DNA of 64,000 bases from Gammaproteobacteria bacterium (GTDB lineage: Bacteria > Pseudomonadota > Gammaproteobacteria > Natronospirales > REEB76), in NCBI GenBank assembly GCA_035279405.1, contig DATEHU010000026.1, positions 512,147-576,146 on the forward strand, in the 5' to 3' direction. Below are positions 28,871 through 48,262 of this stretch, in pieces. The notes below the pieces were generated by a model. It was not told the DNA's origin, made no database searches, and saw only the letters and a list, made by a program, of their open reading frames with translations. Each line of letters begins with the position of its first letter. Position 1 is the first letter of the stretch. Made by a program: the position numbers and the translations under genes.

Positions 28871-30217
28871 CTAGGCCTGCAATTCACCCCACACGAACGG
28901 CCGCTGCCGGAACCACACGGTCAACAGCCATTTTTCCCCACGAATCACCGGTTTGCCTGCGTGCAGCGTGCGGGTGTCGGGTTCACCGTGCGCATCGAGA
29001 TTCACGAATTTCACCGCCTTGCCCTGTGCCGGCAGCACGCAGGCATGCAGCAGCGGGAAATCGGTCTCGCCACCGGCTTCCACATCATTCAAATATACAA
29101 ACAGCGTGGTCTGTCGCTGGCCACCGCGCCCGTCCACCAACTCCTCGCGGTTGCCACGGCTCACGAAGTAATCGAAGTGTGGTTTGTATTGCTGACCCGG
29201 CAGATAGCGCAATACCGCCAGCGGTTCTGCCTGAGCGATGTCGTGACCGGCGAGGTGCGCGATCTGTCGCAACGCCAGGCCGGCGATGAAATCGTACAGG
29301 CTCAGCTGGAAAAACATCGAGCTGCTCGTGCGCACGTCGTTGGTAAGCAGTTTGCCACTATCCGGATCCGCGACGTAGGAAGGCGTGAGCGCCGGCCTGG
29401 CCAGGTTCATGAAATGCTCGCACATGAGCGGCGCCAGCACTTGGGTGATCTGCCAAACGGTACCAGGTACCATGGTGTCCACGACTGCGGCATCGGTGTG
29501 CGCGAGTTTCTCCAGATTCGGAACCGTCAAGGCGGGCGGGCGTTCTGGCGCCGCCCCCGGACGGTACGTCTGGGCGATTGATTGCCAGCGCTCCCGGTCC
29601 GCTCCGGATGCCAAGCGCTCAAGGCGCGCCACGGCACAATAAACCTGACGACCCGCGGCCCGCTCCAGCCAGTGCAGGCCTTCAGCCTGCTGTGCTGCGG
29701 CGGACTGCTGCAGCAACTGCGTAGCCAGCAGATATTGGGAGAGCGCGTCGCCGCCTTGTGCCGCAAGTCGCAGGCAGTAAAGCGCGACGGCATTTTGCGT
29801 GGACCCATGCTCGGCGAGGCAGTGCAACAGGCCGAGCGTGCGCAAGGCCGGCAGGTGATTCAATTCAGCAGCTTGCAACAGCAAGTCACTGGCGCGTGCT
29901 GCGTCCACCGGCACACCGATGCCGTTGAACATCAGATTCCCCAGCGTGTAACAGGCCTCTTTCAGTCCGCACGCAGCGGCCCGTTGCAGGAAACCGGCCG
30001 CCAGCGCCGGCCGCTGGGGAACTCCGATGCCGTTGAGATGCATCAAACCCAGCAAATTGCAGGCTTCGGGGACATCATGGCGCGCGGCACGCTCGAGCCA
30101 CGTGCGCGCCTGCGCATGCTCACCGCGCGAGAACAATCCGATGCCCACGCGCGTCTGGGCCTGGGGATTGCCGGCTTGCGCGCTCTGCAGCAATGCGGAA
30201 TCAGGCGTGGCGTTCAC
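28871..30217 (-). CDS. Sel1-repeat / prolyl 4-hydroxylase-type 2OG-Fe(II) oxygenase
   Basis: 448 residues, GTG start at 30217. The N-terminal half is Sel1-like (short TPR) repeats: LLGLMHLNGIGVPQ, TLGNLMFNGIGVP. The C-terminal 110 residues are a prolyl-4-hydroxylase-like double-stranded beta-helix with iron ligands HFD (about residue 349) and a distal His in TLHAGKPV, then Lys/Trp in GEKWLLTVWF for 2-oxoglutarate. A repeat domain on a hydroxylase suggests a protein substrate. It lies divergently from a TPR-aspartyl hydroxylase gene at the edge of the sulfotransferase/oxygenase island. The substrate is unknown. Confidence 0.87.
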   Translation of the reverse strand: MNATPDSALLQSAQAGNPQAQTRVGIGLFSRGEHAQARTWLERAARHDVPEACNLLGLMHLNGIGVPQRPALAAGFLQRAAACGLKEACYTLGNLMFNGIGVPVDAARASDLLLQAAELNHLPALRTLGLLHCLAEHGSTQNAVALYCLRLAAQGGDALSQYLLATQLLQQSAAAQQAEGLHWLERAAGRQVYCAVARLERLASGADRERWQSIAQTYRPGAAPERPPALTVPNLEKLAHTDAAVVDTMVPGTVWQITQVLAPLMCEHFMNLARPALTPSYVADPDSGKLLTNDVRTSSSMFFQLSLYDFIAGLALRQIAHLAGHDIAQAEPLAVLRYLPGQQYKPHFDYFVSRGNREELVDGRGGQRQTTLFVYLNDVEAGGETDFPLLHACVLPAQGKAVKFVNLDAHGEPDTRTLHAGKPVIRGEKWLLTVWFRQRPFVWGELQA

Positions 30218-30357
30218 GGGAGTACCGGTTTCATGTTCATACTATATACACAGGTGCCGCCGGCGGCATCCCATGCGCACTGCAATGCTGTTGGCCCGTG
30301 ACGCCGGTCGCCCGCCTATGTCACAATCTGCGCCACTCGCGCATTCTTGAAGCCCGT

Positions 30358-31686
30358 ATGCCCCCGGCCCCACCCGATCCAGCCTGGCAGATTTCCACGC
30401 TTGCCGACAGTGCCCGTCGGCTGGCGGAGCGCGGCGAACTCACGGAAGCGGAAAAAATCTACCGTGTCATCCTGGAAACTGCGCCCTATCACGTACGTGC
30501 CCTGCAGTTTCTCGCGGTGCGTGCGTTGGAGCGCGGGCAACTGGATGAAAGCCAGCGCCTCGTCGAGCAGGCACTGCGCGTAGATCCCAAGCGGCCGATC
30601 CTGTATCAGAACCTGGGTCTGGTCCACAATGCAAAAGGCGATTCGGAAATGGCGCTGGCCGCCCTGAATCAGGCGCTGGCGCTGCGCCCGCAGTTTTTCA
30701 CTGCTTTAATGCACAAAGGTGCACTGCTGGAACGCATGGGCCAGGATCAGGAGGCCGTGGTCAGCTACCAACGCGCCTGGAGCTGCCTCCCGCAGCCCCC
30801 CGAAGTCATGGCCAAGGACCCCTCCATTCCCGCCAAGGTGCGCGCGCTTATCGAGCATGCCGCCGAATACCTGCGGGCCCGTCAGGCGTTCGCACTGGCC
30901 GAGCAGTTGCTGCCGTTGCAGGACAAATACGGTGAGGCCGCACTCGCGCGCGTACGCACGGCGGGCGCCATCTTCATGGGCACCGCAGCGGCGGAATACC
31001 GGCACACTTTGCAGCGCCCCGCCTATCTTTACCTCCCGGGCATCGAACCAAAGGCATTTTTTGAACGCGCGGATTTTTCATGGCTCACGACGCTGGAGCA
31101 GGCCAAGTCCGCCATCCGCGCGGAACTCGAAGCCGTCCTGCAGGATCCGCAGGGACTCAAGCCTTACGTACAGATTGACGCCGGACAAGACCCCCGAGAA
31201 TGGAGCGCGCTGAATCAATCGCCGCAATGGAGCGCGTTTCAGCTGCTCAAGGGCGGCAAGCCCGTTGAACCGAATGCCGCGCGCTGCCCGGCTACCCTGC
31301 AGGCGCTTCATGCATTGCCGCTAGCACAGATCCCTGAGCATGCGCCCGAGGCGTTCTTCTCGGTGCTGCGCCCGGGCACGCATATTCCGCCGCATTACGG
31401 CCTCGGCAACTACAAGCTCGCCGTGCACCTGCCGCTGATCGTGCCGCCGGATTGCGCCATCCGCGTCGGCAATGAAACGCGCGGCTGGACCGAGGGCCAG
31501 TGCCTGATCTTTGACGACAGTTTCCAGCACGAGGCCTGGAACAGGAGTGACCGGCTGCGCGCGGTGCTCATCACCGAAATCTGGAATCCGCTGTTGACCG
31601 AGGCCGAACGTGCCGGCGTTACGTCGCTGGTGACGGCGATCAGTGCATTCAAATTGGGCCCCAAGACCGCGCAGGGTGCCGGGTGA
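30358..31686 (+). CDS. TPR-aspartyl/asparaginyl beta-hydroxylase
   Basis: 442 residues from ATG 30358; in-frame sequence upstream does not look like protein. TPR repeats fill about residues 15-150 (LDESQRLVEQALRVDPKRP; EMALAALNQALALRPQF). The C-terminal domain is aspartyl/asparaginyl beta-hydroxylase (PF05118 type): His in THIPPHYGLGNYKLAVHLPL and the second iron His in DDSFQHEAWN. In the family these residues bind Fe(II) and 2-oxoglutarate. The TPRs probably recognise the target protein. The solo sulfotransferase gene follows after 30 bp. Confidence 0.88.
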   Translation: MPPAPPDPAWQISTLADSARRLAERGELTEAEKIYRVILETAPYHVRALQFLAVRALERGQLDESQRLVEQALRVDPKRPILYQNLGLVHNAKGDSEMALAALNQALALRPQFFTALMHKGALLERMGQDQEAVVSYQRAWSCLPQPPEVMAKDPSIPAKVRALIEHAAEYLRARQAFALAEQLLPLQDKYGEAALARVRTAGAIFMGTAAAEYRHTLQRPAYLYLPGIEPKAFFERADFSWLTTLEQAKSAIRAELEAVLQDPQGLKPYVQIDAGQDPREWSALNQSPQWSAFQLLKGGKPVEPNAARCPATLQALHALPLAQIPEHAPEAFFSVLRPGTHIPPHYGLGNYKLAVHLPLIVPPDCAIRVGNETRGWTEGQCLIFDDSFQHEAWNRSDRLRAVLITEIWNPLLTEAERAGVTSLVTAISAFKLGPKTAQGAG

Positions 31687-31716: not shown

Positions 31717-32421
31717 GTGATTGCCACGCGACGTTTTCTGTTTCTGCATCTGCACAAAACCGGCGGCCAGTTTGTCAACCGTGTGCTGCTGCGCCACCTC
31801 CCGGACGCGCGCGCCATAGGCTATCACCTGCCGCGCAGCGCGGCACCGCTGGAACTGCGTGGCTTACCAGTCATCGGCTTCGTGCGCAATCCCTGGAACT
31901 GGTATGTATCCTGGTACGCGTTCAATCTTGCGCAACCGCAGCGCAACCCGATCTTCCGTGCGGTGTCCGCCGACGGCCGACTGGACTTCAAGCACACGCT
32001 CATCAATATGCTGCATCTCGGCTGCGAGCGCTCGCGCCCAATGCGTACGGCGATCGGCACCGCACTACCCGAGACGCGCGAGGGCAACCTGGGGAGCGGC
32101 ATTACGCGCGCAGACATCCTGGCCTACGAGGATGAAAGCCGCGGCTATTTCACCTGGCTGTGGCGTTACATGTTTTTCCTGGGCACGCGCGCCGACGGCC
32201 TGCATGCCGGCCGCATGGAGTACCTGCGCGCGGATTTGCTCGACGCGCTGCAGGCTGTCGGGCAGCCGGTCACTGCCGAACTGCGGGACGCGATACTCAA
32301 CAATCCACCGGTCAACGCCTCGGCGCGGCGCGATTACCGCGGCTATTACGATGCCGAGCTGCGCGCGCTGGTCGCGGTGCGCGATGCCGAGCTCGTGGAC
32401 ACTTACGCTTACGGCTTCTGA
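31717..32421 (+). CDS. Stand-alone sulfotransferase-like protein
   Basis: 234 residues, GTG start. The N-terminal FLHLHKTGGQFVNR fits the 5'-phosphosulfate loop of PAPS-dependent sulfotransferases of the HKTGGT type, and GFVRNPWNWYVSWYAF fits the 3'-phosphate motif (R...S). No repeat domain. It probably forms an operon with the TPR-hydroxylase upstream. Its 3' end overlaps the convergent gene at 32409 by 13 bp. The acceptor substrate is unknown. Confidence 0.78.
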   Translation: MIATRRFLFLHLHKTGGQFVNRVLLRHLPDARAIGYHLPRSAAPLELRGLPVIGFVRNPWNWYVSWYAFNLAQPQRNPIFRAVSADGRLDFKHTLINMLHLGCERSRPMRTAIGTALPETREGNLGSGITRADILAYEDESRGYFTWLWRYMFFLGTRADGLHAGRMEYLRADLLDALQAVGQPVTAELRDAILNNPPVNASARRDYRGYYDAELRALVAVRDAELVDTYAYGF

Positions 32422-33050
32422 ACGGCGGCCGGCCGCCGGCTCGCCACCTGGCTGAACAGCACTTCGTCTTCCGTCCCGGGCGCTTCCGGCAACCGCGCCA
32501 GCAATTCCACCGAGGACGCGTCCGGAAAGATGTCGAATATCAGATGCACGCGCGGCGCGCGCGGGTGCAGATTGAGCACCGCATGCGGCGCGAGGTTGTT
32601 CACGGACCAGGCCTCGCCCGCCGCCATCTGGAACAGGCGCCGGCCGGAGAAGAAATGCACCTGACTGCTGGTGAACACCGGCACGTGCACCCGAAAGGAG
32701 CCCAGGAAATAGTCATTGGCGGCATCGGTGTGGGGATACACGAGTCCGCCGGCCCGCAACGACGCCAGCAGGCACTTGCCGCAGCGGCCGGGCAGCACCT
32801 CGTGCAGCAACTGCCTTATATAAGGACACTGGCTGAGCAGCGGCTGGTCCACGTCCTCCGCCGCACCCTGCAACGGCGCCTGGCCCCTGAGGAACACCGA
32901 CACGGTTTCCTGATGCACCGGCGCGCGGACATTGCCCCAGACCACGGGCGGCAGCGCCGCTACTTCCGCCTGCAGGCGTGGCGCATCTACCGCATACGGC
33001 AGGCGCTTGCAGCCAGAAATGTACTGGCGCTTGTCCGGCATGCTGTGCAT
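32409..33050 (-). CDS. Aspartyl/asparaginyl beta-hydroxylase-like oxygenase
   Basis: 213 residues. Iron ligands in YPHTDA (H107, D109) and a distal His in NNLAPHAVLN (H156), with an Arg near residue 167 in PRVHLIFDIF for 2-oxoglutarate. It carries the same CPYIRQLL...HTD...H arrangement as the N-terminal domain of the divergent gene at 33151 (CPYLRQVL...HTD...H), so the two are paralogues. There is no repeat domain. The start could be the ATG at 33050 or that at 33041. Confidence 0.82.
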   Translation of the reverse strand: MHSMPDKRQYISGCKRLPYAVDAPRLQAEVAALPPVVWGNVRAPVHQETVSVFLRGQAPLQGAAEDVDQPLLSQCPYIRQLLHEVLPGRCGKCLLASLRAGGLVYPHTDAANDYFLGSFRVHVPVFTSSQVHFFSGRRLFQMAAGEAWSVNNLAPHAVLNLHPRAPRVHLIFDIFPDASSVELLARLPEAPGTEDEVLFSQVASRRPAAVQKP

Positions 33051-33150: not shown

Positions 33151-34974
33151 ATGCGGCTGCCCACACCCTTCATCCAGCTTCCGTTGAGTTTCGACGCCGC
33201 GCGTATGCAGGCCGAGATCGGGCAGTTTTCGGAAAGCGACTGGCGCGCCCATCCGCAGGGGTTCGCGGGAAATTCCGCGCTCATTCTGGTATCCCGCGAC
33301 GGCGGCGAAAATGACGACCTCGCCGGCGAAATGCGCACCAGCCCGCGCCTGGAGCGCTGTCCCTATCTGCGCCAGGTGCTGGCGAGTTTCCACACCGTCA
33401 TTGGCCGTTCCCGGCTCATGCGCCTTGCGTCCGGCGCCGAGGTCACCGCCCACACCGACATAGACTACTACTGGCGCGAGCGCATCCGCATCCACGTGCC
33501 CGTGATTACCGATGCGCAGGTGCGGTTTCAGTGCGGCAGCAGCGAGATCCACATGCGCGCCGGCGATGCTTGGATATTCGATAACTGGCGGCCGCACCGC
33601 GTGACCAACCCGAGCGGAATCACGCGCATCCATCTGGTGGTGGATACCGTCGGCAGTGCGGAATTCTGGCGCATGGTGTCGGCCCGACCGGCATCCTCGG
33701 ATCGCGTGGCCGCAACACGCGTCGAATTCCAGCCGCAGCAGCGCGCCGACTTCGCACTCGAACGCTTCAACCGCGAGCCGGTGGCCCACCCCGCGGTGGT
33801 GCGCAACATGACGCAGGAACTCATCGCGGATCTGCGCAGCCAGCCTGCGCGCTCAGCCGGGCAAGCGCAGGTGGAACAGACGCTCATGGATCTCGCCAAT
33901 CAGTGGCAAGCTCTGTGGGCCATATACGGCCCGCATGCGAGCGGGCACGCATCCTTCGCTTTGCTATTGGAACGCAGCCTGAACAGCGTCGCCCCGGCCG
34001 CATCCGACCTGCGCCTGCCGAGCAACGGCGCGCACCTCCCGCTGGTGTTGCAGCGCTTCCTGCCGCCGCTGTTTCCCGGATTCCAGGAATTCCTCGCTAC
34101 TCTCACCCCGCCGCGCTTCGAATGCCCGCTGATAATTCTGGCGGCGCCGCGCAGCGGCAGTACCCTGTTGTTTGAACTGCTGGCCCGGCATCCGGACCTG
34201 TGGACCCTGCCGGATGAAAGCCACGCGCAATTCGAAAACATTCCGGGGCTGGCGCCGCGCGAGCGCGGTTACGACTCCAACCGCCTCGAGGCCGCGGATG
34301 CCATGCCGGACATCACCGCACAATTGCTGCGCAACCTGAGCTGGCAGATCGGCAATGCCCGCGGACAAAACTTCATTGAAATACCCGAGACACAGCGTCC
34401 GGAATCGGTGCGCATCCTGGAAAAGACACCCAAGAATGCACTGCGCGTCGGTTTTCTGCTATCTCTGTTCCCCGATGCGCAATTTTTGTTCCTGCATCGG
34501 GATCCCGCCGCGAGTCTGGGCAGCATGCTGGATGCCTGGCAATCGGGAAAGTTCATCACCTATCCGCAACTGCCGGGTTGGCCCGGCCCACCCTGGTCAT
34601 TGCTGCTCACCCCGGGGTGGCGCGTCCTGGCCGGGCAGCCGCTGGCACAGGTGGTTGCGCAGCAGTGGCGCGCGGCCAACGAAGCCATCCTCGCGGCCCT
34701 CGAGAAGCTGCCGCGTGAACGCTGGCGCACGCTGGATTACGCGGAACTGCTGCGCGATCCGGCGGGCGTGTTTGCACGCGCGAGTGCCTTCATGCAACTT
34801 GCGGTACCGCAGCAACTGCTCCGCAGCCTGCCCGCGCAGTTGCCGTATTCAAGTCACACGCTCACGCCGCCGGCCAAGGACAAATGGCGGCGGCACGCGG
34901 CGGAACTCGAACCGGTGCTGCCCCCGCTCGCCGACATTAACGCGCGTCTGCAGCGACTGGGCAACCGCCTGTGA
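33151..34974 (+). CDS. Fused aspartyl-hydroxylase-like / sulfotransferase protein
   Basis: 607 residues with two catalytic domains. Residues about 1-180 form an aspartyl-hydroxylase-like 2OG-Fe(II) domain with H101 and D103 in AHTDIDYY, H149 in WRPHRV and an Arg near 159. Residues about 320-600 form a PAPS-type sulfotransferase: 5' loop APRSGSTLLFELL (P333-T338), 3' loop LHRDPAASLGSML. Between them is a helical linker of about 140 residues. Hydroxylation and sulfation on one chain suggest that the two reactions act on the same substrate. It overlaps the next TPR-sulfotransferase gene by four bases. Confidence 0.87.
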   Translation: MRLPTPFIQLPLSFDAARMQAEIGQFSESDWRAHPQGFAGNSALILVSRDGGENDDLAGEMRTSPRLERCPYLRQVLASFHTVIGRSRLMRLASGAEVTAHTDIDYYWRERIRIHVPVITDAQVRFQCGSSEIHMRAGDAWIFDNWRPHRVTNPSGITRIHLVVDTVGSAEFWRMVSARPASSDRVAATRVEFQPQQRADFALERFNREPVAHPAVVRNMTQELIADLRSQPARSAGQAQVEQTLMDLANQWQALWAIYGPHASGHASFALLLERSLNSVAPAASDLRLPSNGAHLPLVLQRFLPPLFPGFQEFLATLTPPRFECPLIILAAPRSGSTLLFELLARHPDLWTLPDESHAQFENIPGLAPRERGYDSNRLEAADAMPDITAQLLRNLSWQIGNARGQNFIEIPETQRPESVRILEKTPKNALRVGFLLSLFPDAQFLFLHRDPAASLGSMLDAWQSGKFITYPQLPGWPGPPWSLLLTPGWRVLAGQPLAQVVAQQWRAANEAILAALEKLPRERWRTLDYAELLRDPAGVFARASAFMQLAVPQQLLRSLPAQLPYSSHTLTPPAKDKWRRHAAELEPVLPPLADINARLQRLGNRL

Positions 34975-36695
34975 ACGAGGCCGCGGCCGAGACGCCGTTG
35001 TTTGAACAAGCCTCTCAAGCCTACGAGCAGGGCCGGCGCACGCAGGCCGCACAGCTGGCGCGTCAGCTGTTGCAGCAGTCGCCGCAACACACGGGCGCAT
35101 GGTTCCTGCTCGGCAGCGTGCTGCTGGACGACGGCCGCGCTGAAGAGGCCCTGCCCTGTCTGCAAGCGGCGGCGCGCCTGGCGCCGATGCACGCCGGCAT
35201 TCTGCGTGCGCTCGGTACGGCGCATTTCAACCTCCAGCAGTGGCCCGAAGCTGCGCGGCAGTTCGAGCTGGCCTTGCACCACGGACCGGCCGACGCCGGA
35301 CTGCTTAACAACTTCGGTGTGACGCTCAAGGAACTGGGCGAAAGCGAGGCCGCTATCACGATTTACCGGCAAGCTCTGCAGCTTGAGCCGAATGACGCCC
35401 GCATCCACAACAATCTCGCTCTCGCCCTGAACCGAGAACACGACTACGCGGCAGCCATTGACGCGTACAAGCGCTCCACGCAGCTCGATGCGCGCAATGC
35501 CGCCGTGTGGATCAATCTCGCCACCCTGCTGGAACAGACCAACCGCCTGGACGAAACCGAAGCGGTGCTCGCGCAGGCACTGCAACTCGAGCCGCAGTCC
35601 GCGAGACTCGCTTTGGTGGCTGCCAAATGTCTGCGCAGGCGCGGCCGCACGGAGTCTGCCATTGCCCGCCTCAAGGATGCCCTCAAGCAACCGAGATTGA
35701 ACAAGGAACTGCAGCGCAGCTTGGAATTCGAGCTGGGGCGCAATCATGACCTGCAGGGTGACAGCGACGAGGCTTACCGGCATTTCGAGCTCGGGAACCG
35801 GCTGACGCTGGAAGCCTGGCCGGAACTCGCGGATGGCGCGCGCGCCTATCTCGCAGAGCTCGACATGCTGCTGGATATCTGCACGCCCGCCTGGCTCCGG
35901 GCGCTGCCGCGCACGAAGCCCGCGGATTCGCAATTGCAGACCGCTTTTCTGGTGAGCTTTCCGCGCTCCGGCACGACCCTCATGGACACCTTCCTCGATG
36001 CCCACCCAAAGGTGCGCGTGCTGGAAGAAGAACCGTGCCTGGGACAGGTGCTCGACCGGGTGCGCGCCTTGCCCGGGAGTTACCCGCGCGCCGTCGCCTC
36101 GCTCAGCGCCGAGCAGCTGGCGGAATTGAGCACCGTGTATCTGAACGCCGTCACCAAACTGGCGCGGCCGGAAGCAGGCATGCTGGTGGTGGACAAGAAT
36201 CCGTTCCATTCGACGCATGCCGGCCTCATCCAGCGCCTGTTGCCCGGCACGCGCTTCATCTTCGCACTGCGCCATCCTTGCGACGTGGTGCTGTCCTGCT
36301 TCATGCAGCCTTTCGGCCGCAGTCCGGTACTCGCGAATCTTCTCGATCTCGAAACCAGCGCTGAGGTTTACCGGCGGGTCATGGACCTGTGGCTGCGCTA
36401 CCGTGATGCCTTACCTCTCGAAGTCCATGAATTGCGCTACGAGCAACTGGTGACGGATACGCACTCCAGCCTGCAGGCGCTGCTGGAATTCCTCGGCCTG
36501 GCGTGGTCGGAAGAACTGGCCGATCACACGGCGCACGCGCAGCGACGCGGCCGCATTTATACGCCGAGCTACCACCAGGTCATCCGTCCGGTGTACAGCG
36601 ACGCCGTCAACCGCTGGCAGCGTTATCAGCGCCATTTCGGCGCAGCGCTGGACCTCCTGCGGCCTTATGCGGGGCATTTCGGCTACTCCATATAG
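34971..36695 (+). CDS. TPR-sulfotransferase
   Basis: 574 residues, GTG start overlapping the previous stop (GTGA). TPR repeats cover about residues 5-280 (AWFLLGSVLLDDGRAEEALP; LLNNFGVTLKELGESEAAI; IHNNLALALNREHDYAAAI). The C-terminal PAPS sulfotransferase domain has 5' loop SFPRSGTTLMDTFLDAHP and 3' loop FALRHPCDVVLSCF. Both cofactor motifs are intact. This is the TPR-sulfotransferase family common in proteobacteria, related to tyrosylprotein sulfotransferases; substrate selection by the TPRs is inferred. Confidence 0.9.
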   Translation: MNEAAAETPLFEQASQAYEQGRRTQAAQLARQLLQQSPQHTGAWFLLGSVLLDDGRAEEALPCLQAAARLAPMHAGILRALGTAHFNLQQWPEAARQFELALHHGPADAGLLNNFGVTLKELGESEAAITIYRQALQLEPNDARIHNNLALALNREHDYAAAIDAYKRSTQLDARNAAVWINLATLLEQTNRLDETEAVLAQALQLEPQSARLALVAAKCLRRRGRTESAIARLKDALKQPRLNKELQRSLEFELGRNHDLQGDSDEAYRHFELGNRLTLEAWPELADGARAYLAELDMLLDICTPAWLRALPRTKPADSQLQTAFLVSFPRSGTTLMDTFLDAHPKVRVLEEEPCLGQVLDRVRALPGSYPRAVASLSAEQLAELSTVYLNAVTKLARPEAGMLVVDKNPFHSTHAGLIQRLLPGTRFIFALRHPCDVVLSCFMQPFGRSPVLANLLDLETSAEVYRRVMDLWLRYRDALPLEVHELRYEQLVTDTHSSLQALLEFLGLAWSEELADHTAHAQRRGRIYTPSYHQVIRPVYSDAVNRWQRYQRHFGAALDLLRPYAGHFGYSI

Positions 36696-36792: not shown

Positions 36793-37491
36793 ATGAGCCA
36801 ACCGCCCATTCAGATCAACGCCGCGTTCGCCTCGCCGCTGCTGCGCACGCGGCTGCCGCAGTGCGAAACCCTCAACGCGCGCCTGCGCGAGCTGTTCCTC
36901 GCGTGGGAGTCCGATCCTGCGCGCAAGCGCAGCTCCCTGCCCACCGGGGTCGTCAAGGTGGCGGTGTATGAAAGCGATTTTTCACTGTTCGACAATCCCG
37001 AACCCGAAATCCAGGCGCTCAAGCAGTTCTGCCTGCAGGGCACCGGCTATGCCATCCAGCAGCTGAACGGGTACAGTGCCGAAGAAATGGCGCAATTGCG
37101 CATCTTCCAGCACAGCTGGTATCACCTCACGCGCCACGGCGGTTATACCGCCCAGCACAACCATCCCATGGCCTCGTGGTCAGGCGTGTATTGCGTGGAC
37201 CCGGGGGATCCGGTGCAGGACAAGCCCAACAACGGTGCACTGCGCTTCCTGGAAGCCCGCCAAACCGCGAGCATGTACCTGGACAGTGGCAATGCGCACT
37301 GGAAGGCGCCGTTCGGCTTCGGCGAACAGGCCTTCCAGTTCGAGGCCGGCGAACTGCTGCTGTTTCCCTCGTATCTCGTGCACGAGGTGGCGCCGTATTA
37401 CGGCCAGCGCGAACGCATCACCGTGGCTTTCAATGCATGGGTGCGCGACGCGCAATCTGCGGGCGACGAGCCTTTCATCAGGCCGCGCTAA
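36793..37491 (+). CDS. 2OG-Fe(II) oxygenase, TIGR02466-like
   Basis: 232 residues. The segments HNHPMASWSGVYCV (iron ligands in the HxH/N region), GELLLFPSYLVHEVAPY (distal His) and RITVAFNAWV match the putative 2-oxoglutarate oxygenase family TIGR02466. It follows the TPR-sulfotransferase by 97 bp on the same strand and is the last gene before a repeat-rich gap. The substrate is unknown. Confidence 0.85.
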   Translation: MSQPPIQINAAFASPLLRTRLPQCETLNARLRELFLAWESDPARKRSSLPTGVVKVAVYESDFSLFDNPEPEIQALKQFCLQGTGYAIQQLNGYSAEEMAQLRIFQHSWYHLTRHGGYTAQHNHPMASWSGVYCVDPGDPVQDKPNNGALRFLEARQTASMYLDSGNAHWKAPFGFGEQAFQFEAGELLLFPSYLVHEVAPYYGQRERITVAFNAWVRDAQSAGDEPFIRPR

Positions 37492-37812
37492 GCTGCCGGC
37501 AATCCCGAGCCGGGAATTGATTTATTGATCGCGGCGAATATCGCCGCTCCCACAAACCCGACATCTTTTCCACTGTGGGAGAGATGCGACGGTAGTCCCT
37601 CCACCCCGACAAGTCCTTTCAGGCTCATCGAGGATAAGCATACAAGCGACGGTCTGTGGGAGCGGCCGTCCCGGCCGCGATAATCCTCCCCCACCTGATT
37701 TAATCGCGGCGAATATCGCCGCTCCCACAAACTGCCGGTAATCGGTTGCCGGGGAAATGATTTTCCGATCGCGGTGAAGGCAGATTTTTGCTCCTGCAAA
37801 ATCTGCATTTCC

Positions 37813-38183: not shown

Positions 38184-38231
38184 GCCATCGCGGCGAATAT
38201 CGCCGCTCCCACAAAATATTGGCGCTCGCGC

Positions 38232-41200: not shown

Positions 41201-41449
41201 GCTCTGCTGAATCTGCTGTGCGGTGATGATGGTCACCGGCTGCGCGGTCTCGACGTCGGTGCGCTTGATGCGCGTGCCCGTGACCTCGATCTTGCCGAGT
41301 TGCGCGGTATTGGCGTTCTGGTTCTGATTCTGGTTATTGGCGGGGGTCTGCTGCGCCGCGCTTTGCGCGAGCACCGCTGGTGCGGCCATGGCCGAGGCGG
41401 CACCCGCCACCAGAGCGTAACGCACGGCTTTGCGAAGGTTGCTGTTCAT
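38294..41449 (-). CDS. TonB-dependent outer-membrane receptor
   Basis: 1051 residues from ATG 41449 (CAGGAG six bases upstream); in-frame sequence further upstream is not protein-like. Signal peptide about 1-29 (ending VLA-QSAAQQ), then an Asn/Gln-rich stretch (ANNQNQNQNANTAQ), then a TonB-box-like GKIEVTGTRIKR, the plug domain (VLVLVNGRRW; ILQDGASAVYGSDAITGVVNI) and a 22-strand-type barrel ending in VAVKF. No STN signalling domain. Substrate unknown. It is flanked on both sides by oxygenase and TPR-sulfotransferase genes. Confidence 0.95.
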   Translation of the reverse strand: MNSNLRKAVRYALVAGAASAMAAPAVLAQSAAQQTPANNQNQNQNANTAQLGKIEVTGTRIKRTDVETAQPVTIITAQQIQQSGLTTIGDVLQNLTQSGAAINTLFNNGGNGSTSIDLRYLGSNRVLVLVNGRRWTPQLNGVVDLNTIPVSVIDHVEILQDGASAVYGSDAITGVVNIITLKNYNGAEAHAYVGIYHNTYNAKTSKPNNGFDHWDGKIQQYDFTIGSQGDRAGVVFDAGYTNQQSIWAGSRVQSREAIWTQGGGSSGAADGRFFFIGTGFAGKTFGTGTCAAFNPAAKSYGTCDMSLTATPSNNPQLGNFTNWSPAHAFNYAPLNYFVTPLETKSIYVQGHYDLADNLTFTSEAMYSNRTSQQTLAPSPLFLGLGNYLNNGSYIGIGKNNPYNPFGQDIVGNANQYCPGNAAATSVAVSGCSNELLILWGRRPLEAGNRNFNENVASYTFRMGLNGFFNMLGSEWDWDVGSIYGNTYQSNLTQGLFNTSRLATQLNSPGAAQCNGPGQVTQPAGQSVLINGLYYPIITAGCVPFNPFGGFNLATGQGSLTPQMLAYSQYEEHNVNSVTLRDYTANITGDLFQMPAGPFGVALGAEYLENDGFDHPDSTTATGNTSGNVSTPTDGKEWSTAEYIEFNIPLLADVPLFHSLNLDLANRWTQIKWKGGEPGDTFYGVENRASATTGRAALKWQPTDDLLIRGSWSQGFRAPSLADLYTGQFSNYPGVQDPCAGPPNGNYVPPAPLPPGCGGVVHTQPNGQIQTIGGGNPHLSPEKAISRSVGFVYNPGWFPGFDFSADFYKIELDHAVGTINAQQILNGCYIAQNAANCALINLQGKVISKIFSISTNTGGEYTRGIDVSTHYKFPSTAIGDFKLGLNWTFVRSFVLTTICTPVAATGACPTGWKNTELVGNGSAFTAFPSQKGNISLDWNYGDWSARWFMQYIGSWFEPCTTKTKTAKECSNPTSPNAFSGGTGMNHQGRTIYHDVEGTYHVDAINTDFTFGIRNLFDKEPPATLTSFANSFIPSVGYRVPGRFFYAQVAVKF

Positions 41450-41822
41450 CCGAAACTCCTGCGTGATTGGAGGGTTGGAAACTGCCGGGCCCTTGGCTGC
41501 GCTGGAGTGCGCAATGCGGACCCATGTAATGGAAATTTTCCCGTTTTCCCCGAGGCCGGAGACATGCTCCGCCTCGCTTAGCTCAGGGGAATATAGCACA
41601 GGGGATGCAAAATGGAAGGGTAATGTTGTAAATCTTTAACAATATTTTCAACGGTAAACATCCCGCAGTGACGGGCTTTAGAGCAAATCTAAGCCCTTGG
41701 ATTTCATTCGTGTTGCTTCGTAACAACATTGGATGCTCTGTGATTTTTGGCAGCATGCGATAGACTTGCCTTTGCCCGCCGCCAGCTCACAAATTGCTTT
41801 ACCCAGTCCGGAATTGACACAG
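41450..41822. other. AT-rich divergent intergenic region
   Basis: Holds the promoters of the receptor (minus) and of the TPR-sulfotransferase-like gene (plus). It is markedly more AT-rich than its surroundings between about 41600 and 41770. A hairpin GGGCTTTAGA-gcaaa-TCTAAGCCC lies at 41673-41696 with one bulged base, and TGTTG...CAACA at about 41710-41728. An in-frame ATG at 41733 could extend the plus-strand gene by 30 residues. No small gene recognised. Confidence 0.55.
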
Positions 41823-43388
41823 ATGCCAGCCGACTTCACAACAGCCGCAGCACCCAGCGCTGAGTCGGCCTGCCAATCCGGCCTGGAATTGCTGAGCCGC
41901 GGCGACTTCGCTGCCGCTGACAGGGAATTCGAAACCGCCATCTCCATGGCTCCGTCCATGGCGCAGGCGCATCTGGGACTGGGCAACAGCCTGCGGCGCC
42001 AGCGCCAATCGCGCAAAGCCGAAACGGCGCTGCGGCGTGCACGCACGCTGGACCCCAATCTGCGTGACGCCACTTACAGTCTTGCCTTTCTGCTGCACGA
42101 CGCGGGCCGGGATATCGAAACGTCCGCGGCCTTGATGGAGCTGGCCGCACGCGAGCCCACGGATCTTACACTGCAAAGGCAGGTGACCGGCCTGCTGATG
42201 GATTTCAACTGCTTCGAGGATGCCGCCCGCCTGGCGAGAAAGATTGCCGAGGTCGCGCCGGCCGCGGGTGCCTGGCAACGCCTCGGCGCATGCCTGCTGC
42301 AGTTGCAGCGCCTGCCGGAAGCCGAAGAGGCGCTCAACGCGGCCGTACGCAGAGACCCGCTGGCCGGATTCGCCTACCTGCTCATGAGCCAGGCCCGCCG
42401 GGCGACGACGGCTGACCGGGCGAGGCTGGATGACCTGCAGGCCATTCTGAACAACAGCAAGATCACCGGCGAAGCGCGCGCCTGCCTGCATTTCGCCATG
42501 GGCAACTGGCTCGAAGATCTGGGTGATTTCAAAGGCGCTTGGCAGCAGTTTTCAGCCGCCAACCGACTGCGCCGCGACGCGCGGCCGTTTGACCGGCTGG
42601 TGTGGGAGGACTACTTCAAGGGCCTGCCGAAAACCGTTGCGCGCGCGGATCGAATCCCAATCTCGGGACCGAATCCCCAACCTCTGTTCCTCATCGGTTT
42701 TCCGGGTGCCAACCCCGAGTCGCTTGCCTCACTGCTCGCAACTCACCCTGCCGTGTCCAGCCTCGGCGTGAGCACCCAGGTGGATGGTGTGGCGCGCGCC
42801 TGTGAGCAACTGGCGGACAAGGCGTACCCCGAATGCCTTGCAGATATTGAAGACGCCCAGCTTGATGGCCTCGAACAGGGCGCGCGTGCCGATTGGCCCG
42901 AAAAGACCAAGGAGGCGCGGTGGGTTCTGGATGAAACTCCTTTGAATTTCCTGCATCTGGCACTGATTCAGCGGGTATTTCCGGATTCACGCATCATTCA
43001 TCAGCACAGGCAGCCCTGGGACGAGTGCCTGTCCGCGTACCTTTGGCCCTTTCCCCATCCGAATCACAGCCATGTGCATGCTCTTCAGGACCTCGCTTAT
43101 TTTTACCGGCAATACTCGGCGTTGATGGATCGGTGGCAGGAAAGCTTGCCGGCCCAAACCCTGTTGAAATTCCCGGCCAATTCCCGAGTGAACATTCCTG
43201 CTACAGAAACTCATGCAGTCTGGAAGTTTCTGGGACTGAACCCGCCGCCGGCCGCAGGCGCTCTACAACCGGCATCCCGGCCGCTGTTGTCGGCCGATCC
43301 GCAGAAACGGGACGTTCCGGGGCGCTGGCGGAACTATCGCGAGTACCTGGCCCCCGTGTTCGAGGCAGCGGGCCTGGAGCCTGACTGA
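41823..43388 (+). CDS. TPR protein with degenerate sulfotransferase domain
   Basis: 521 residues from ATG 41823. TPR repeats (about residues 15-230: AQAHLGLGNSLRRQRQSRKA; WQRLGACLLQLQRLPEAEEAL) precede a domain that aligns by eye with the sulfotransferase domains of its neighbours. The PAPS 5' loop reads GFPGANPESLASLLATHP (P294-S300), where neighbours have PRSGTTL, so the Arg, first Ser and Thr residues are lost. The 3' loop QHRQPWDECLSAYL is partly kept. It is probably catalytically dead and may act as a scaffold. Its stop overlaps the next ATG (TGATG). Confidence 0.82.
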   Translation: MPADFTTAAAPSAESACQSGLELLSRGDFAAADREFETAISMAPSMAQAHLGLGNSLRRQRQSRKAETALRRARTLDPNLRDATYSLAFLLHDAGRDIETSAALMELAAREPTDLTLQRQVTGLLMDFNCFEDAARLARKIAEVAPAAGAWQRLGACLLQLQRLPEAEEALNAAVRRDPLAGFAYLLMSQARRATTADRARLDDLQAILNNSKITGEARACLHFAMGNWLEDLGDFKGAWQQFSAANRLRRDARPFDRLVWEDYFKGLPKTVARADRIPISGPNPQPLFLIGFPGANPESLASLLATHPAVSSLGVSTQVDGVARACEQLADKAYPECLADIEDAQLDGLEQGARADWPEKTKEARWVLDETPLNFLHLALIQRVFPDSRIIHQHRQPWDECLSAYLWPFPHPNHSHVHALQDLAYFYRQYSALMDRWQESLPAQTLLKFPANSRVNIPATETHAVWKFLGLNPPPAAGALQPASRPLLSADPQKRDVPGRWRNYREYLAPVFEAAGLEPD

Positions 43389-45178
43389 TGGCCGCCAACC
43401 CGATGCCGTCCGCCGAAATCCGCGCCCAGATTGCCCAAGCCGTTTTCCACCAGCAGCGGGGGGCGTATGCGGACGCCGAACGCCTGTTGCGCGCGGTCAT
43501 CGCCACCGATCCTCGCCAGCCTGACGCCCTGCATTATCTGGGCCTGCTCGCCTTTCAGACGGGACGACCCGAGCAGGCGGTGGACTTGATGCAGCGATCC
43601 ATTACGGAAGCCCCCGGGAATGCCGCGTTTTATTACAACCTCGCAGGTGTGCTGCAGAAACTCGGCCGTGGCCAGGAGGCCGTGCCCCTCTACCAGCGGT
43701 GTCTGGACCTGCAGCATGGCAATGGCGATGCCTGGCAGGGCCTGGCCCAGACACTGCATGCGCTGGGGCACCCGGAAGACGCGGTGGCGTGCCTGGAACA
43801 CGCTGCCATCTATGCGCCGAATCACAGCGGGTGCTGGTCCGTACTCGGCGAAATTCAGGACGCCCTCGGGATGCTTCCCGAGGCCACGGCCGCTGCCCGC
43901 AGGGCGTCGGAACTGTCACCTGGCAACCCTGAATTGCGCGCGCGTCTGGGAGCGCAACTTATAAAGCAGGCGCACTATGACGAGGCCCACCGGGTCCTGG
44001 ACCAGGCCATCGCATCCGCACCGCGCCTCGCGCAAGCTCATTACGACCGCGCCACATTGGATGCCGTGCTGGGAAACTTTGATGCAGCGCGTGCCGGTTT
44101 TGAAACCGTGCTCGAAATTGATCCGCAGTTCTATTCGGCCTATTTCCATCTGGCCGCGATCCGGAAAATTCCCGCAGGTGATCCCATGATCGGCCGGCTG
44201 GAAGCCGCGGCGGAGCGCAACCAGTGGCGCGAGCCAGCCGAGGCCATCCACGTGCATTTCACTCTGGGACGGATTCTTGAAGGTCAGGGCAAGTATGAGC
44301 AGGCGTTTGCACATTTCAGCGCCGGCAACCAAGTACGTCGCTCCACGCTGCACTACTCCGCGGCCGATCAGCGCGAGGTGATGCATGGGCTGGCGTCGCT
44401 GTTCGACGCGGATTACCTGCGGCGCATGACGGGAGCTGCGCACACCACCCATCTGCCGGTATTCATACTCGGCATGTCGCGCTCCGGAACCACGCTCACC
44501 GAACAAATCCTGGCGCGTCATCCCCAGGTGCGCGGCGGCGGCGAACTCAACTTCCTGCACGCGGCCTTGCGCCGGCGCCTGGGCCGGGATTACCGCCTCG
44601 ATTATCTCGCCGCGCTGCGCAGCCTGAGCGACGCGGATCTGCACGGGATCAGCGCGCAGTGCCTCAATGAAATGCAGGCGCTGGACCCGGCGGCGGCGCG
44701 CATCACCGACAAGATGCCTTCCAATTTCATGGTTCTCGGCCTGCTGCACACGCTCTATCCGCAGGCTCGCATCATCCACTGCCGGCGCGATCCGCTGGAC
44801 AACTGCGTGTCGCTGTACACCACGCTGTTTGAAACCGGCCACGGGTTCAGTTCAGATCTGGCCGAGCTGGGCGGCTACTACCGCATGTACGCCGAGTTGA
44901 TGCAGCACTGGCGTGCAATTCTGCCGCCCGGCGTGATGCTGGAACTGGATTACGAGGCGCTGGTCAGCGATACCGAAAATCAGGCGCGCCGCTTGCTGCA
45001 ACATTGCGGGCTGGAGTGGGATCCCGCGTGCCTGCAAGTCGGCGAGTTGCAGCGCGGCATTCGGACCGCCAGTCTGTTTCAGGCACGCCAGCCCGTGTAC
45101 CGTTCGGCGGTCGGGCGCTGGAAACGCTATGAGCGTTTCCTCGGGCCGCTGAAAACCGCGCTCGGCATCCCAAACTGA
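43388..45178 (+). CDS. TPR-sulfotransferase
   Basis: 596 residues; ATG overlaps the previous stop by one base. TPR repeats cover about residues 10-310 (LHYLGLLAFQTGRPEQAVDL; FYYNLAGVLQKLGRGQEAVP; WSVLGEIQDALGMLPEATAA). The sulfotransferase domain has an intact 5' loop LGMSRSGTTLTEQILARHP and 3' loop CRRDPLDNCVSLYTTLF. It could pair with the degenerate paralogue upstream as an active/inactive couple; that is inference. Confidence 0.92.
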   Translation: MAANPMPSAEIRAQIAQAVFHQQRGAYADAERLLRAVIATDPRQPDALHYLGLLAFQTGRPEQAVDLMQRSITEAPGNAAFYYNLAGVLQKLGRGQEAVPLYQRCLDLQHGNGDAWQGLAQTLHALGHPEDAVACLEHAAIYAPNHSGCWSVLGEIQDALGMLPEATAAARRASELSPGNPELRARLGAQLIKQAHYDEAHRVLDQAIASAPRLAQAHYDRATLDAVLGNFDAARAGFETVLEIDPQFYSAYFHLAAIRKIPAGDPMIGRLEAAAERNQWREPAEAIHVHFTLGRILEGQGKYEQAFAHFSAGNQVRRSTLHYSAADQREVMHGLASLFDADYLRRMTGAAHTTHLPVFILGMSRSGTTLTEQILARHPQVRGGGELNFLHAALRRRLGRDYRLDYLAALRSLSDADLHGISAQCLNEMQALDPAAARITDKMPSNFMVLGLLHTLYPQARIIHCRRDPLDNCVSLYTTLFETGHGFSSDLAELGGYYRMYAELMQHWRAILPPGVMLELDYEALVSDTENQARRLLQHCGLEWDPACLQVGELQRGIRTASLFQARQPVYRSAVGRWKRYERFLGPLKTALGIPN

Positions 45179-45236: not shown

Positions 45237-45698
45237 ATGAATGAAGCTGCCACCGCCGAACCCACAGCGCTGGAATCCGCGCTGCTGATTACCGCGGACA
45301 ACCTCGAAGGCCGGCGCAAGATCCTGCAGCTGCTGTTCGATGCGCGCGTGTACGTGGTGCTCGATCAGCCCTGGGACGGCCGCGCGCTGCCGAGCACCGA
45401 CATGCACCTGCTGCTGGTGAGCGACGGCAAGAACAGCCAGCAGGCGATGCTCGCGCTGTTCACCAGCCGCGAAAAATGCACGGCGGTGCCCAAGGGAGAT
45501 TCGCTGTTCGATTATCCGGTCGAAGTGGACGCCAAATGGGCGCTGCTCGGCGTGCCCGAGGGCGCCGGCATTCTCGTCAATCCAAACTCGGCGCCGGCGT
45601 TCCGGGTCACGCCGGAGCTGGCGGCGGAATTAAGGGCGATTGCACAGCGTCACCTGGCGCAGCACCTGCCGGGCAGCGCATCCTCCGCCAAACCATGA
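45237..45698 (+). CDS. SseB-like protein
   Basis: 153 residues. The pattern YVVLDQPWDG, MLALFTSREKC and AGILVNPNSAPAFRVTPE matches the SseB N-terminal domain (PF07179 type). SseB (enhanced serine sensitivity) has no settled biochemical role. It sits between two TPR-sulfotransferase genes, 58 bp after one and overlapping the next by four bases (ATGA), so it is probably co-translated with them. Confidence 0.8.
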   Translation: MNEAATAEPTALESALLITADNLEGRRKILQLLFDARVYVVLDQPWDGRALPSTDMHLLLVSDGKNSQQAMLALFTSREKCTAVPKGDSLFDYPVEVDAKWALLGVPEGAGILVNPNSAPAFRVTPELAAELRAIAQRHLAQHLPGSASSAKP

Positions 45699-47392
45699 GC
45701 CTGCCCGCCGACAAAGCGCTGATTCCCGACGAACTGCAGCAGGCCGCCGAGTGCATGCGCATCGGCCAAGTCAGCGTCGCCGCCAGCCTGCTGGATCCCT
45801 GGCTGCAGAATCATCCGCAGGATTATCACGTGCTGCATCTCGCGGGTACGATTGCCATCGCCGAGGACCGGCATGCGGATGCCGTGGACCTTTTCCGGCG
45901 CGCCATTGCCGTGGCCCCCGACGCCGCAAATCAGGCCATGAGCTGGAATGGCGTTGGGCACGCCATGAGCGGCCTGCATCAACACGCCCAAGCCGAAGAG
46001 GCATACCGGCGCGCGATGCTCGCGGATCCCGCACGCGTGACGCACGCCCTGGATTTCGCCCAGGCATTGTCCGACGGCGGCAAACACCAGTTGGCGATGG
46101 ACGTGTTGCAGACCGCGATCCGGCGGCATCCCAAGGACCCCGCGCCGTGTGCGCGCCTTGGAAGTTTCCTGGTGAAACAAGGCCGGCAGCAGGACGCCCT
46201 GGTGATGTTCGACATGGCCATGCGCTGCGACCCGCTGTACGCGCCCGCGCATTTCAATGCCAGCGTGGCGCTGGTAATGCTCGGCAAGACCGACGAGGCC
46301 TACAAGGCCTGCGACACGGCGCTCAAGCTCGATCCCAACATGGCGGGCTACTACCAGTTGGCGGGACTCGGTGAAGTCAGTGCCGAGCGCCTGGTGCTGC
46401 TCGAATCCCGTGCCGCCGCAGATTCCGGCGCATCGTTTGAGGCACGCATTGACGCGGGCTTTGCACTCGCGTCCGCCTACAATCGCCGCGGCGATCCCGA
46501 GCGCGCGTTCGGTTACCTGGCGGAAGCCAACCGCCTGAAACGCGGCACACTCCAGTTCGACATCGAAATCGAGCGCGACCGCGTGCAGCGCCTCAAGGCA
46601 TTTTTCACACCGGAATTATTCGCGCGTTTTGCCGGCCGCGTACCCTCCACGCTGCAACCCATGTTCATACTCGGCATGCCGCGTTCCGGCTCCACACTCG
46701 TGGAGCAGATGCTGGCCGGACACCCGCAGGTACAGGCCGGCGGAGAAATGCCGCACCTGCCCGTCATATGCCACGCCGTGGGCGACACTTGGGGGGCACG
46801 CGGCGCCGCCTCCCCGGGCAGCGATGAGCAGGTCATCGCCGACCTCACCGACGCCGTGCGTCAATACGCGCAGCTCACCGAACATCTGCGCCGCCGGCAT
46901 CCGCGTTTCACCGACAAGCTGCTGGGCAATTATCTGATGCTGGGCATGATCGAGCTGATGTTTCCCCAGGCCAGCATCATTCATACGCACCGCAATGCTT
47001 TCGATACCTGTCTGAGCTGCTATGAGCGCTTGTTCACCTCGGAGCTGAATTACACCTACGATCTTACGGACCTCGGCCAACAATACCGGCTGTACGAAGA
47101 ACTCATGGCGCACTGGCACGCGGCACTGCCCGCGGGACGGATTCTGGATGTGGAATATGAAGCACTGGTGGCCGAACCGGAAACGGGCCTGCGGCGGATT
47201 CTTGAGCACTGCGGCCTGCCGTTTGATGCCGCCTGCCTCAAGTTTCACGAAGTCAGCCGTCCGGTCACCACGGCAAGTGCCGCTCAGGTGCGCAGACCCA
47301 TATATCAGTCATCCGCCGGGCGCTGGCATCTCTACAAAAACCATCTGCAGCCGCTGGCGGAGGCACTGCAACGGCCGTTGCCGGCCGACTGA
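45695..47392 (+). CDS. TPR-sulfotransferase
   Basis: 565 residues from ATG 45695, overlapping the SseB-like stop (ATGA); in-frame sequence upstream is a shadow of that gene. TPR repeats about residues 10-215 (YHVLHLAGTIAIAEDRHADA; FNASVALVMLGKTDEAYKA). Sulfotransferase domain with 5' loop LGMPRSGSTLVEQMLAGHP and 3' loop THRNAFDTCLSCYERLF, both intact. It is the last gene of a four-gene plus-strand unit 41823-47392, converging on a cupin gene 15 bp away. Confidence 0.92.
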   Translation: MSLPADKALIPDELQQAAECMRIGQVSVAASLLDPWLQNHPQDYHVLHLAGTIAIAEDRHADAVDLFRRAIAVAPDAANQAMSWNGVGHAMSGLHQHAQAEEAYRRAMLADPARVTHALDFAQALSDGGKHQLAMDVLQTAIRRHPKDPAPCARLGSFLVKQGRQQDALVMFDMAMRCDPLYAPAHFNASVALVMLGKTDEAYKACDTALKLDPNMAGYYQLAGLGEVSAERLVLLESRAAADSGASFEARIDAGFALASAYNRRGDPERAFGYLAEANRLKRGTLQFDIEIERDRVQRLKAFFTPELFARFAGRVPSTLQPMFILGMPRSGSTLVEQMLAGHPQVQAGGEMPHLPVICHAVGDTWGARGAASPGSDEQVIADLTDAVRQYAQLTEHLRRRHPRFTDKLLGNYLMLGMIELMFPQASIIHTHRNAFDTCLSCYERLFTSELNYTYDLTDLGQQYRLYEELMAHWHAALPAGRILDVEYEALVAEPETGLRRILEHCGLPFDAACLKFHEVSRPVTTASAAQVRRPIYQSSAGRWHLYKNHLQPLAEALQRPLPAD

Positions 47393-47407
47393 CGCGATCG
47401 GGGATTT

Positions 47408-48262
47408 TCAGACTCCGGCCCGGGCTGCCGCCGGGCGACGCAGCAAATCCTCGCGCATGCGTTCCAGGCCTTCGGGCTGGGGCAGTTCCGCGAAAAAGCT
47501 CACCGCCACATGCCGGCCGCCAGAACTCACCTGATGGAACCAGCCGGCCGGCAGAAACAACATCTCGTTGGTGTTGACGTCGAAATCCATGCGCTGCTTT
47601 TCGGCCTCGGCATAGGCCGGGAAGCGCGCCAGATCGGGGTGATGAATATCCACCTGCGAAAGATGCGGCATGCCTGTGCCGCCTGCGTAGCGGATCAGGC
47701 CGTGCGGCTCGACCGTCAATAACTTACCCCGCGTGTACAGGTTCGGCGCCTGCGACGGCGGAAAAACCGTGAAGCGTTTGCGGCCCTGCACCACCACGTA
47801 CAGGTTGTCGTTGAAGTCATGATGCAGCGGCGTGGTGATATCCGTAGCGCTGTTCCCCATCCATAGATTGATGCTGCGCAACGGCAGGTCCTTGAAATAC
47901 TCCGGGATGTTGAAATCCCCCGCCAGTTGCAGCAACGGCGGCTCCAAAACCTTGTCGGTCTGCAGATTGAGATATAGATCCGGACTGCCGCCCGGCGCGG
48001 CCATGACCTGTTTTACAAAGTCGCGAAAGCGCATCGGCAGGTAGGAGGAACGCTCGGGCGCATAGTCCGGACTGCGGCTGCGCTTGAGCACCAGCACCGT
48101 GTGTGCGCCTGCCTTGTAGTCCAGATAATCGTCATCCCAAAGATGCGTGCGCCAGCCGAGTTGCGCCAGCGATTCGCTGCGCACGATCAACGGCCGGCGC
48201 TCCGCGTAGCGCAGATAAAACTCGGGCAGCGGCAGCGGATGCGTGAAGCGCTCGATGTCCAT
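47408..48262 (-). CDS. JmjC/cupin-8-type Fe(II) oxygenase
   Basis: 284 residues. The core cupin-8/JmjC fold is visible: NLWMGNSATDITTPLHHDFNDNLYVVVQG (read in parts) with iron ligands HxD in LHHDF, FTVFPP, and the distal His in LFLPAGWFHQV. The relatives are protein hydroxylases of the FIH/TYW5/JMJD5 kind, so a protein (or tRNA) target is plausible. It closes the island next to two tRNA genes. Confidence 0.87.
   Translation of the reverse strand: MDIERFTHPLPLPEFYLRYAERRPLIVRSESLAQLGWRTHLWDDDYLDYKAGAHTVLVLKRSRSPDYAPERSSYLPMRFRDFVKQVMAAPGGSPDLYLNLQTDKVLEPPLLQLAGDFNIPEYFKDLPLRSINLWMGNSATDITTPLHHDFNDNLYVVVQGRKRFTVFPPSQAPNLYTRGKLLTVEPHGLIRYAGGTGMPHLSQVDIHHPDLARFPAYAEAEKQRMDFDVNTNEMLFLPAGWFHQVSSGGRHVAVSFFAELPQPEGLERMREDLLRRPAAARAGV

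Follow-up and report, generated by a model that had tools for sequence, protein, structure and literature searches.

Oxygenase and sulfotransferase genes gathered around a large TonB-dependent receptor in a Natronospirales-type gammaproteobacterium

We analyzed a stretch of 64,000 nucleotides (the window) on contig C26 of a draft genome (2.46 Mb, 97.6% complete) whose named near relatives are Natronospirales-type gammaproteobacterial metagenome-assembled genomes. Between positions 28871 and 48262, the window holds an island of genes, lettered A to M, with six 2-oxoglutarate (2OG)-oxygenase domains, six sulfotransferase domains (one of them degenerate), one TonB-dependent receptor (TBDR), and one SseB-like protein. 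Domains were identified using Pfam, alignments, AlphaFold models, and Foldseek. An earlier note on this DNA had listed these genes, and Pfam matches together with open reading frame (ORF) coordinates placed them close to where it had put them. Its count of six oxygenase-type and six sulfotransferase-type domains was also confirmed (Pfam, alignments, and AlphaFold/Foldseek), as were the tetratricopeptide repeats (TPRs) that it had seen on five proteins (B, F, I, J, and L) and the Sel1 repeats on one (A), both by Pfam. The genes are the following.

A, 28871..30217, minus strand: Sel1 repeats and a C-terminal P4H-like 2OG-Fe(II) oxygenase domain
B, 30358..31686, plus strand: TPR and AspH-type 2OG oxygenase (Pfam Asp_Arg_Hydrox, 1e-46)
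C, 31717..32421, plus strand: short sulfotransferase of 234 aa, no Pfam match
D, 32409..33050, minus strand: short 2OG oxygenase, proline cis-4-hydroxylase-like (Pfam Asp_Arg_Hydrox, 3e-9)
E, 33151..34974, plus strand: fusion of a proline-hydroxylase-like oxygenase (N-terminal) and a TPST-like sulfotransferase (C-terminal)
F, 34971..36695, plus strand: TPR-sulfotransferase with intact P-loop and Glu, its start overlapping the end of E
G, 36793..37491, plus strand: 2OG-FeII_Oxy_5/TIGR02466-type oxygenase (Pfam, 9e-19)
H, 38294..41449, minus strand: large TBDR with a signal peptide; the ORF could reach 41599
I, 41823..43388, plus strand: TPR-sulfotransferase pseudoenzyme (by alignment)
J, 43388..45178, plus strand: intact TPR-sulfotransferase (Pfam, 1e-47)
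K, 45237..45698, plus strand: SseB N-domain-like protein (Pfam SseB, 1.6e-5)
L, 45695..47392, plus strand: intact TPR-sulfotransferase, its start overlapping the end of K
M, 47408..48262, minus strand: Cupin_8/JmjC-type oxygenase (Pfam, 4e-41)

Oxygenase and sulfotransferase domains meet in one chain in the fusion E, whose AlphaFold model (pLDDT 94, pTM 0.87) matched the L-proline cis-4-hydroxylase 4p7w with its N-domain (Foldseek, 5.5e-10; Pfam oxygenase match, 1e-14) and the human tyrosylprotein sulfotransferases TPST1/2 with its C-domain (about 1e-8). Residues H101, D103, H149, R159, E356, and K425 of E were invariant in the alignment. The Pfam family Sulfotransfer_3 was recognized in the C-domain of E (3e-25) as well as in F (1.5e-33), I (2.6e-17), J (1e-47), and L (1e-43). 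The TPST hallmarks, a PRSG(T/S)T loop and the equivalents of Glu and Lys, were kept in F, J, and L; J matched the tyrosylprotein sulfotransferase 8w5z (9e-9), and L matched TPST2 3ap1 (1.4e-8) and TPST1 (4e-8), with the catalytic Glu aligned. The P-loop for the sulfate donor 3'-phosphoadenosine 5'-phosphosulfate (PAPS), the catalytic Glu, and the Lys were found together in F, J, L, and the C-domain of E but not in I, which the earlier note had called degenerate and in which the PRSGTT loop and the catalytic Glu are indeed gone in the lineage of the window, while its ortholog in the congener G008 keeps both. The short protein C has a conserved LHLHK(T/S)GG loop and an RNPW..Y.SWY motif in the alignment, and the leading Protein Data Bank fold matches of its AlphaFold model (pLDDT 92) were essentially all sulfotransferases (best E value, 2.8e-3; TM about 0.5; no E value of <0.001). 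Based on these motifs and fold matches, C was taken as a sulfotransferase. The genome also encodes an APS (adenosine 5'-phosphosulfate) kinase, so PAPS can be made.

Among the oxygenases, the profile of B matched human AspH TPR-oxygenase structures (2.5e-53) with an identical TPR-oxygenase layout, and its active site (HxG...HEAWN) is intact, with H346, G348, and H391 invariant in the alignment. The profile of D matched 4p7w (1.8e-12), and its HxD...H...R pattern was conserved, with H107, D109, H156, and R167 invariant; the hallmarks of the proline cis-4-hydroxylase type (HxD...H triad, 2OG-binding Arg, and matching fold) were present in both D and the N-domain of E. In these features, D and the N-domain of E resemble proline cis-4-hydroxylases, and B resembles AspH. 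Gene A, with Pfam matches to Sel1 (6e-17) and 2OG-FeII_Oxy_3 (6e-13), has orthologs in G004, G005, G008, and G011, and G is 70 to 84% identical in congeners. The oxygenase-type gene at 47408, which the earlier note had included in the island, has to be set apart: the Cupin_8 gene M has no ortholog at the island of the relatives and is private to the window, and it probably lies outside the system. Beside M, at the right edge of the island, are tRNA-Arg (CCT; 48296-48372) and tRNA-Ala (CGC), both within 48296-48500; an ORF at 48345 was rejected as a gene, as it overlaps the tRNA genes.

No N-terminal signal-like segment was found on A to G or I to M, while H, when read from M51, carries one; therefore, the enzymes are predicted to be cytosolic and the receptor to be exported. 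Since the signal peptide belongs to that reading, the start of H (Pfam barrel, 1e-29; Plug, 2e-22) is probably the ATG at 41449 and not the GTG at 41599. The other conserved gene that does not encode an enzyme is the small SseB-like K, which is 40 to 88% identical across seven loci and has no signal peptide; H and K are the only two of that kind in the island. Genes overlap at E-F, I-J, and K-L.

The island was found in synteny, whole or partial, in eight congeners (G001, G003, G004, G005, G007, G008, G009, and G010) and in G011, a sister genus of the same family. The conserved order is A-B-C-D-E-F-G-H-I-J-K-L, bordered in relatives by an OGDH E1 gene on one side and an S8 peptidase/UGDH pair on the other, and protein identity between relatives is often 40 to 60%. 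Gene content varies: the island of G001 is without C to F, and some relatives have extra genes for an HTD-type oxygenase, a PKHD-type oxygenase, a TPR-methyltransferase, or a sulfotransferase-like protein of ca. 350 aa. The TPR-methyltransferase (L029:7355-8620, in the island of G007) combines TPR with a TylF/Methyltransf_24 domain and, as judged from its domains, is a third chemistry on a TPR arm of this kind. In G001, a reverse-transcriptase ORF, group II intron type by appearance, is inserted between H and G (L020:13710-15074).

The association extends beyond the family. The fusion E had 367 related stretches in the genome-contig database, from Xanthomonadales, Nevskia/Solimonas, Steroidobacteraceae, Caulobacterales, Burkholderiales, and others. 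Genomes of the Steroidobacter, Solimonas, Hydrocarboniphaga, and Chromatiales types have a related cluster (L072; L074, Solimonas aquatica; L096, Hydrocarboniphaga; L111; L114, Peristeroidobacter soli; L115; L116), composed of a TBDR, a TPR-sulfotransferase, a P4H-like oxygenase, B, and E, with C and D in most cases. In Pseudoxanthomonas (L059, L068, L077, and L081), the receptor is followed directly by E, and in Dokdonella (L087 and L088), a C-D-E unit stands apart from any detected TBDR. Outside the home family, adjacent receptor/enzyme pairs were codirectional in 15 of 16 cases, with gaps that were mostly short, or overlaps. The additional clusters of neighboring ORFs around E were discarded, as most looked like housekeeping genes (such as thiC and pyrophosphatase) or like shadow ORFs antisense to genes in high-GC DNA. 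The earlier note would have given up its proposal had these domains rarely been together elsewhere; on the contrary, they co-occur in many genomes of several orders.

We then looked at the linkage to receptors. Of 38 sulfotransferase loci in nine genomes, 21 had a TBDR at a distance of 5 kb or less, versus 3.2 expected under random placement (loci of related genomes depend on each other). The linked receptors, 30 of the 60 TBDRs placed in a tree, all fell in a large class (859 to 1,093 aa), while a 19-member clade of small receptors (619 to 850 aa) contained none. The linkage label changed 9 times along the tree, whereas shuffles gave 20.4 changes and none of the 500 was as low. Along similar lines, in a TBDR-rich, more distant genome of the phylum (G128), all three TPR-sulfotransferases were just downstream of a TBDR on the same strand. 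Thus, the synteny within the genus and family, the recurrence in other orders, and the excess of TBDR proximity amount to more than chance and, at the level of gene arrangement, the island is a real gene system and no chance pile.

Two elements were found upstream of the receptor gene, in the H-I intergenic region.

41594..41634, minus strand: conserved box GATTTACAACA...CTTCCA.TTTG...TGTGCTA upstream of H, with positions invariant in seven relatives
41711..41728, no strand assigned: candidate operator, an 18-bp palindrome TGTTG-N8-CAACA

Exact copies of the palindrome numbered one in the window and four in the genome, two of the four being upstream of sulfotransferase-linked receptors. With one mismatch at most and within 400 bp upstream, it accompanied 16 of 30 linked versus 2 of 29 unlinked receptors (Fisher test, 1e-4, uncorrected for relatedness), and the two unlinked receptors were close kin of linked ones. 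In G035, exact copies lie near the apparent starts of TBDRs that have no sulfotransferase nearby, which fits an operator of receptors, not of sulfotransferases; by its distribution, TGTTG-N8-CAACA looks like the former. The noncoding block that spans both elements (41594-41728, with the box TTTACAACA...CTTCCA.TTTG...TGTGCTA) is common to relatives and also occurs upstream of other large TBDRs. On the other side of the receptor, the gap between G and H (37491-38294) contains REP-like short palindromic repeats of the GTGGGAGCGGCGATATTCGCCGCGAT type, a 29-bp family in six copies.

What would such a set of enzymes do? In the scheme that we favor, to which we assign a probability of roughly 40%, the cytosolic TPR- or Sel1-armed enzymes act on the precursor of receptor H before its export, adding hydroxyl and sulfate groups. 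The repeat arms would hold an unfolded or extended polypeptide; the AspH-like B would hydroxylate Asp/Asn, while A, D, G, and the N-domain of E would hydroxylate other side chains, most likely Pro in the case of D and E. Sulfate from PAPS would be transferred to Tyr, or to the hydroxyls made by the oxygenases, by C, F, J, L, and the C-domain of E, so that E would perform both hydroxylation and sulfation in one chain. The likeliest substrate would be the precursor of H, modified in the cytosol ahead of Sec export, and hydroxyl and sulfate groups on its surface loops might alter ligand binding or recognition by phages and colicins. A more general version, which we put forward more tentatively, is that of a dedicated hydroxylation-then-sulfation pathway, in part a single fused enzyme, that acts on precursors of large TBDRs, so that these receptors would be displayed on the outer membrane with both sulfated and hydroxylated residues. 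We infer that the substrate is a protein and that the receptor is that protein, and likewise the residue specificity, the order of the steps, and the benefit.

In favor of the receptor precursor as substrate are the synteny, the codirectional receptor/enzyme pairs, the tie to one large receptor class, the TBDR neighbors in G128, the signal peptide on H but on none of the enzymes, and the APS kinase. In addition, TPRs are joined to catalytic domains as unlike as those of the sulfotransferases, the AspH-like oxygenase, and the methyltransferase. Given these repeats on unrelated enzymes, the AspH- and TPST-like active sites, the fusion, the absence of a precursor gene from the gaps compared, and the presence of the receptor among only two conserved nonenzymes, modification of the receptor precursor is the most economical explanation. 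The protein modification proposed in the earlier note fared well on several counts, namely, the AspH-like B, the TPST-like domains with Glu and Lys, the AAH-sulfotransferase fusion, and the TPR-methyltransferase of G007, and less so on another, since D and the N-domain of E are at least as similar to free-proline hydroxylases as to protein hydroxylases.

Several observations weigh against the receptor as the substrate. The closest matches of D and the N-domain of E are hydroxylases of free proline, and matches of the sulfotransferase domains include enzymes that sulfate polyketides and other small molecules. TPR-sulfotransferases are present even where a genome encodes three TBDRs or fewer, down to none, and of the 41 fully flanked loci of E, 21 had no TBDR within 10 kb; therefore, these families also have further substrates. 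Receptors that are near-copies of H were found with no such enzymes next to them (G001 C29 and G008 C15). Finally, Tyr in acidic context was not enriched (2.66 per 1,000 aa in linked versus 2.47 in small unlinked receptors), and this measure was dropped as an uninformative signal of sulfation sites. The suggestion that the set travels with a receptor class thus held for the receptors, which belong to one large class by the tree and by the 21 of 38 loci, but not for the families of E and the TPR-sulfotransferases, which are not receptor specific. From these distributions, receptor linkage is a recurrent recruitment and not a property of entire enzyme families.

Their occurrence without TBDRs, together with the Dokdonella unit, would also fit enzymes that modify another protein or peptide, encoded elsewhere or secreted like RaxX; the receptor would be a partner in its uptake or sensing and not the substrate. 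TPR arms and AspH- and TPST-like domains favor protein substrates here as well. However, a comparison between relatives, covering some of the gaps and including the H-I region, found no conserved small ORF that could encode a precursor peptide; the conserved ORFs in gaps were oxygenases or sulfotransferase-like proteins or lay within alignable noncoding DNA. Neither a dedicated exporter nor a maturation protease was recognized in the conserved block, and K, the sole other conserved nonenzyme, has no signal peptide. We consider this alternative somewhat unlikely.

TBDR operons commonly encode enzymes that act on the imported ligand, and a small molecule, lipid, or glycan could enter through the receptor and be hydroxylated and sulfated stepwise. 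The similarity of D and the N-domain of E to free-proline hydroxylases, that of the catalytic domain of B to the lipid hydroxylases OlsC/LpxO, and a sulfotransferase fold that includes olefin-synthase and mycobacterial small-molecule sulfotransferases are all consistent with it. Yet, most of the enzymes bear protein-binding repeats and come in several nonequivalent copies, the use of PAPS and 2OG would be costly for catabolism, and no dehydrogenase, hydrolase, or inner-membrane transporter was recognized in the conserved block. The hallmarks of nutrient utilization, catabolic enzymes and an inner-membrane transporter beside the receptor, were likewise missing from the Pfam content of the island, and we regard processing of an imported ligand as unlikely. 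It is improbable that the genes lack a joint function and that duplicating TPR-sulfotransferases and oxygenases simply accumulate at a tolerant site, as the modular gains and losses (G001 without C to F, M private, I decayed, and other oxygenases in relatives) and the presence of only four sulfotransferase loci in the genome, yet five Sulfotransfer_3 matches in the island, might suggest, given the gene order shared across the genus and family at 40 to 60% identity, the related order in other orders, the tie to one receptor class, the fusion E, and the overlapping genes.

Elsewhere in the genome, a second genus-conserved locus (L014; source contig C34, 9.7 to 16.7 kb) has a TPR-sulfotransferase, a large TBDR, and one or more TPR-sulfotransferases, with no recognized oxygenases and with a Xaa-Pro dipeptidase and an aldo/keto reductase alongside. 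A further TPR-sulfotransferase (L016; source contig C59, about 9 to 15 kb) was rejected as a TBDR neighbor, as it adjoins an AcrB-type RND efflux pump and its HlyD-family partner. A subtilase-like S8 protein with a PKD domain (48966-51356) adjoins the island, as it does in several congeners, some of which have it split in two (L027 and L029). A minus-strand ORF at 53795 was rejected as a gene because it is antisense to a HlyD-family gene.

If the receptor is decorated as proposed, this would revise the view of ligand specificity and phage recognition in TBDR-rich bacteria, and bacterial AspH- and TPST-like enzymes would gain a testable substrate. Hydroxylation followed by sulfation might be catalyzed by a single protein, the widespread oxygenase-sulfotransferase fusion being a candidate. 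Since cultured genera also carry the set (related clusters in Solimonas aquatica and Peristeroidobacter soli and a minimal pair of receptor and fusion in Pseudoxanthomonas), the question is answerable by ordinary proteomics.

No published description of a system of this composition was found in searches of the open PMC library. The closest parallels are partial. RaxX-RaxST-RaxAB of Xanthomonas is a tyrosine sulfation system (PMC4216712, PMC6637879). As in RaxX/RaxST, a bacterial PAPS sulfotransferase is predicted to act on a ribosomal polypeptide, but the island has several TPR-sulfotransferases plus oxygenases and a link to a TBDR. No RaxX-like precursor gene was found beside the sulfotransferases (ORFs of the relatives' gaps and of H-I, some gaps only), nor, by Pfam, any RaxA/RaxB type I exporter in A to M; an RND/HlyD pair (53798-57962) lies outside the conserved block. 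A lasso-peptide cluster of Pontixanthobacter contains AspH-like and sulfotransferase genes (PMC10040529). This AAH-type and sulfotransferase pairing is shared with the island, while its lasso B2, nucleotidyltransferase, PqqD-like, asparagine-synthase, and ABC transporter genes were not recognized there. The rhizobial L-proline cis-4-hydroxylase (4p7w) and the Streptomyces proline 3-hydroxylase (1e5r) have the fold and the HxD...H...R pattern of D and the N-domain of E; they use free proline, whereas the counterparts in the island are fused to or beside a sulfotransferase. Hydroxylated and sulfated residues are otherwise familiar from secreted eukaryotic proteins. Human AspH, an endoplasmic reticulum membrane Asp/Asn beta-hydroxylase that acts on EGF-like domains, shares its domain order and active-site pattern with B, which is, however, predicted to be cytosolic and lies among sulfotransferases. 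With human TPST1/2, the sulfotransferase domains of the island share the fold, the P-loop, and the catalytic Glu and Lys, at an identity of only ca. 20% and with TPR arms or an oxygenase fusion added. The families are known, and the apparently undescribed part is the receptor-linked arrangement of putative protein hydroxylation/sulfation genes.

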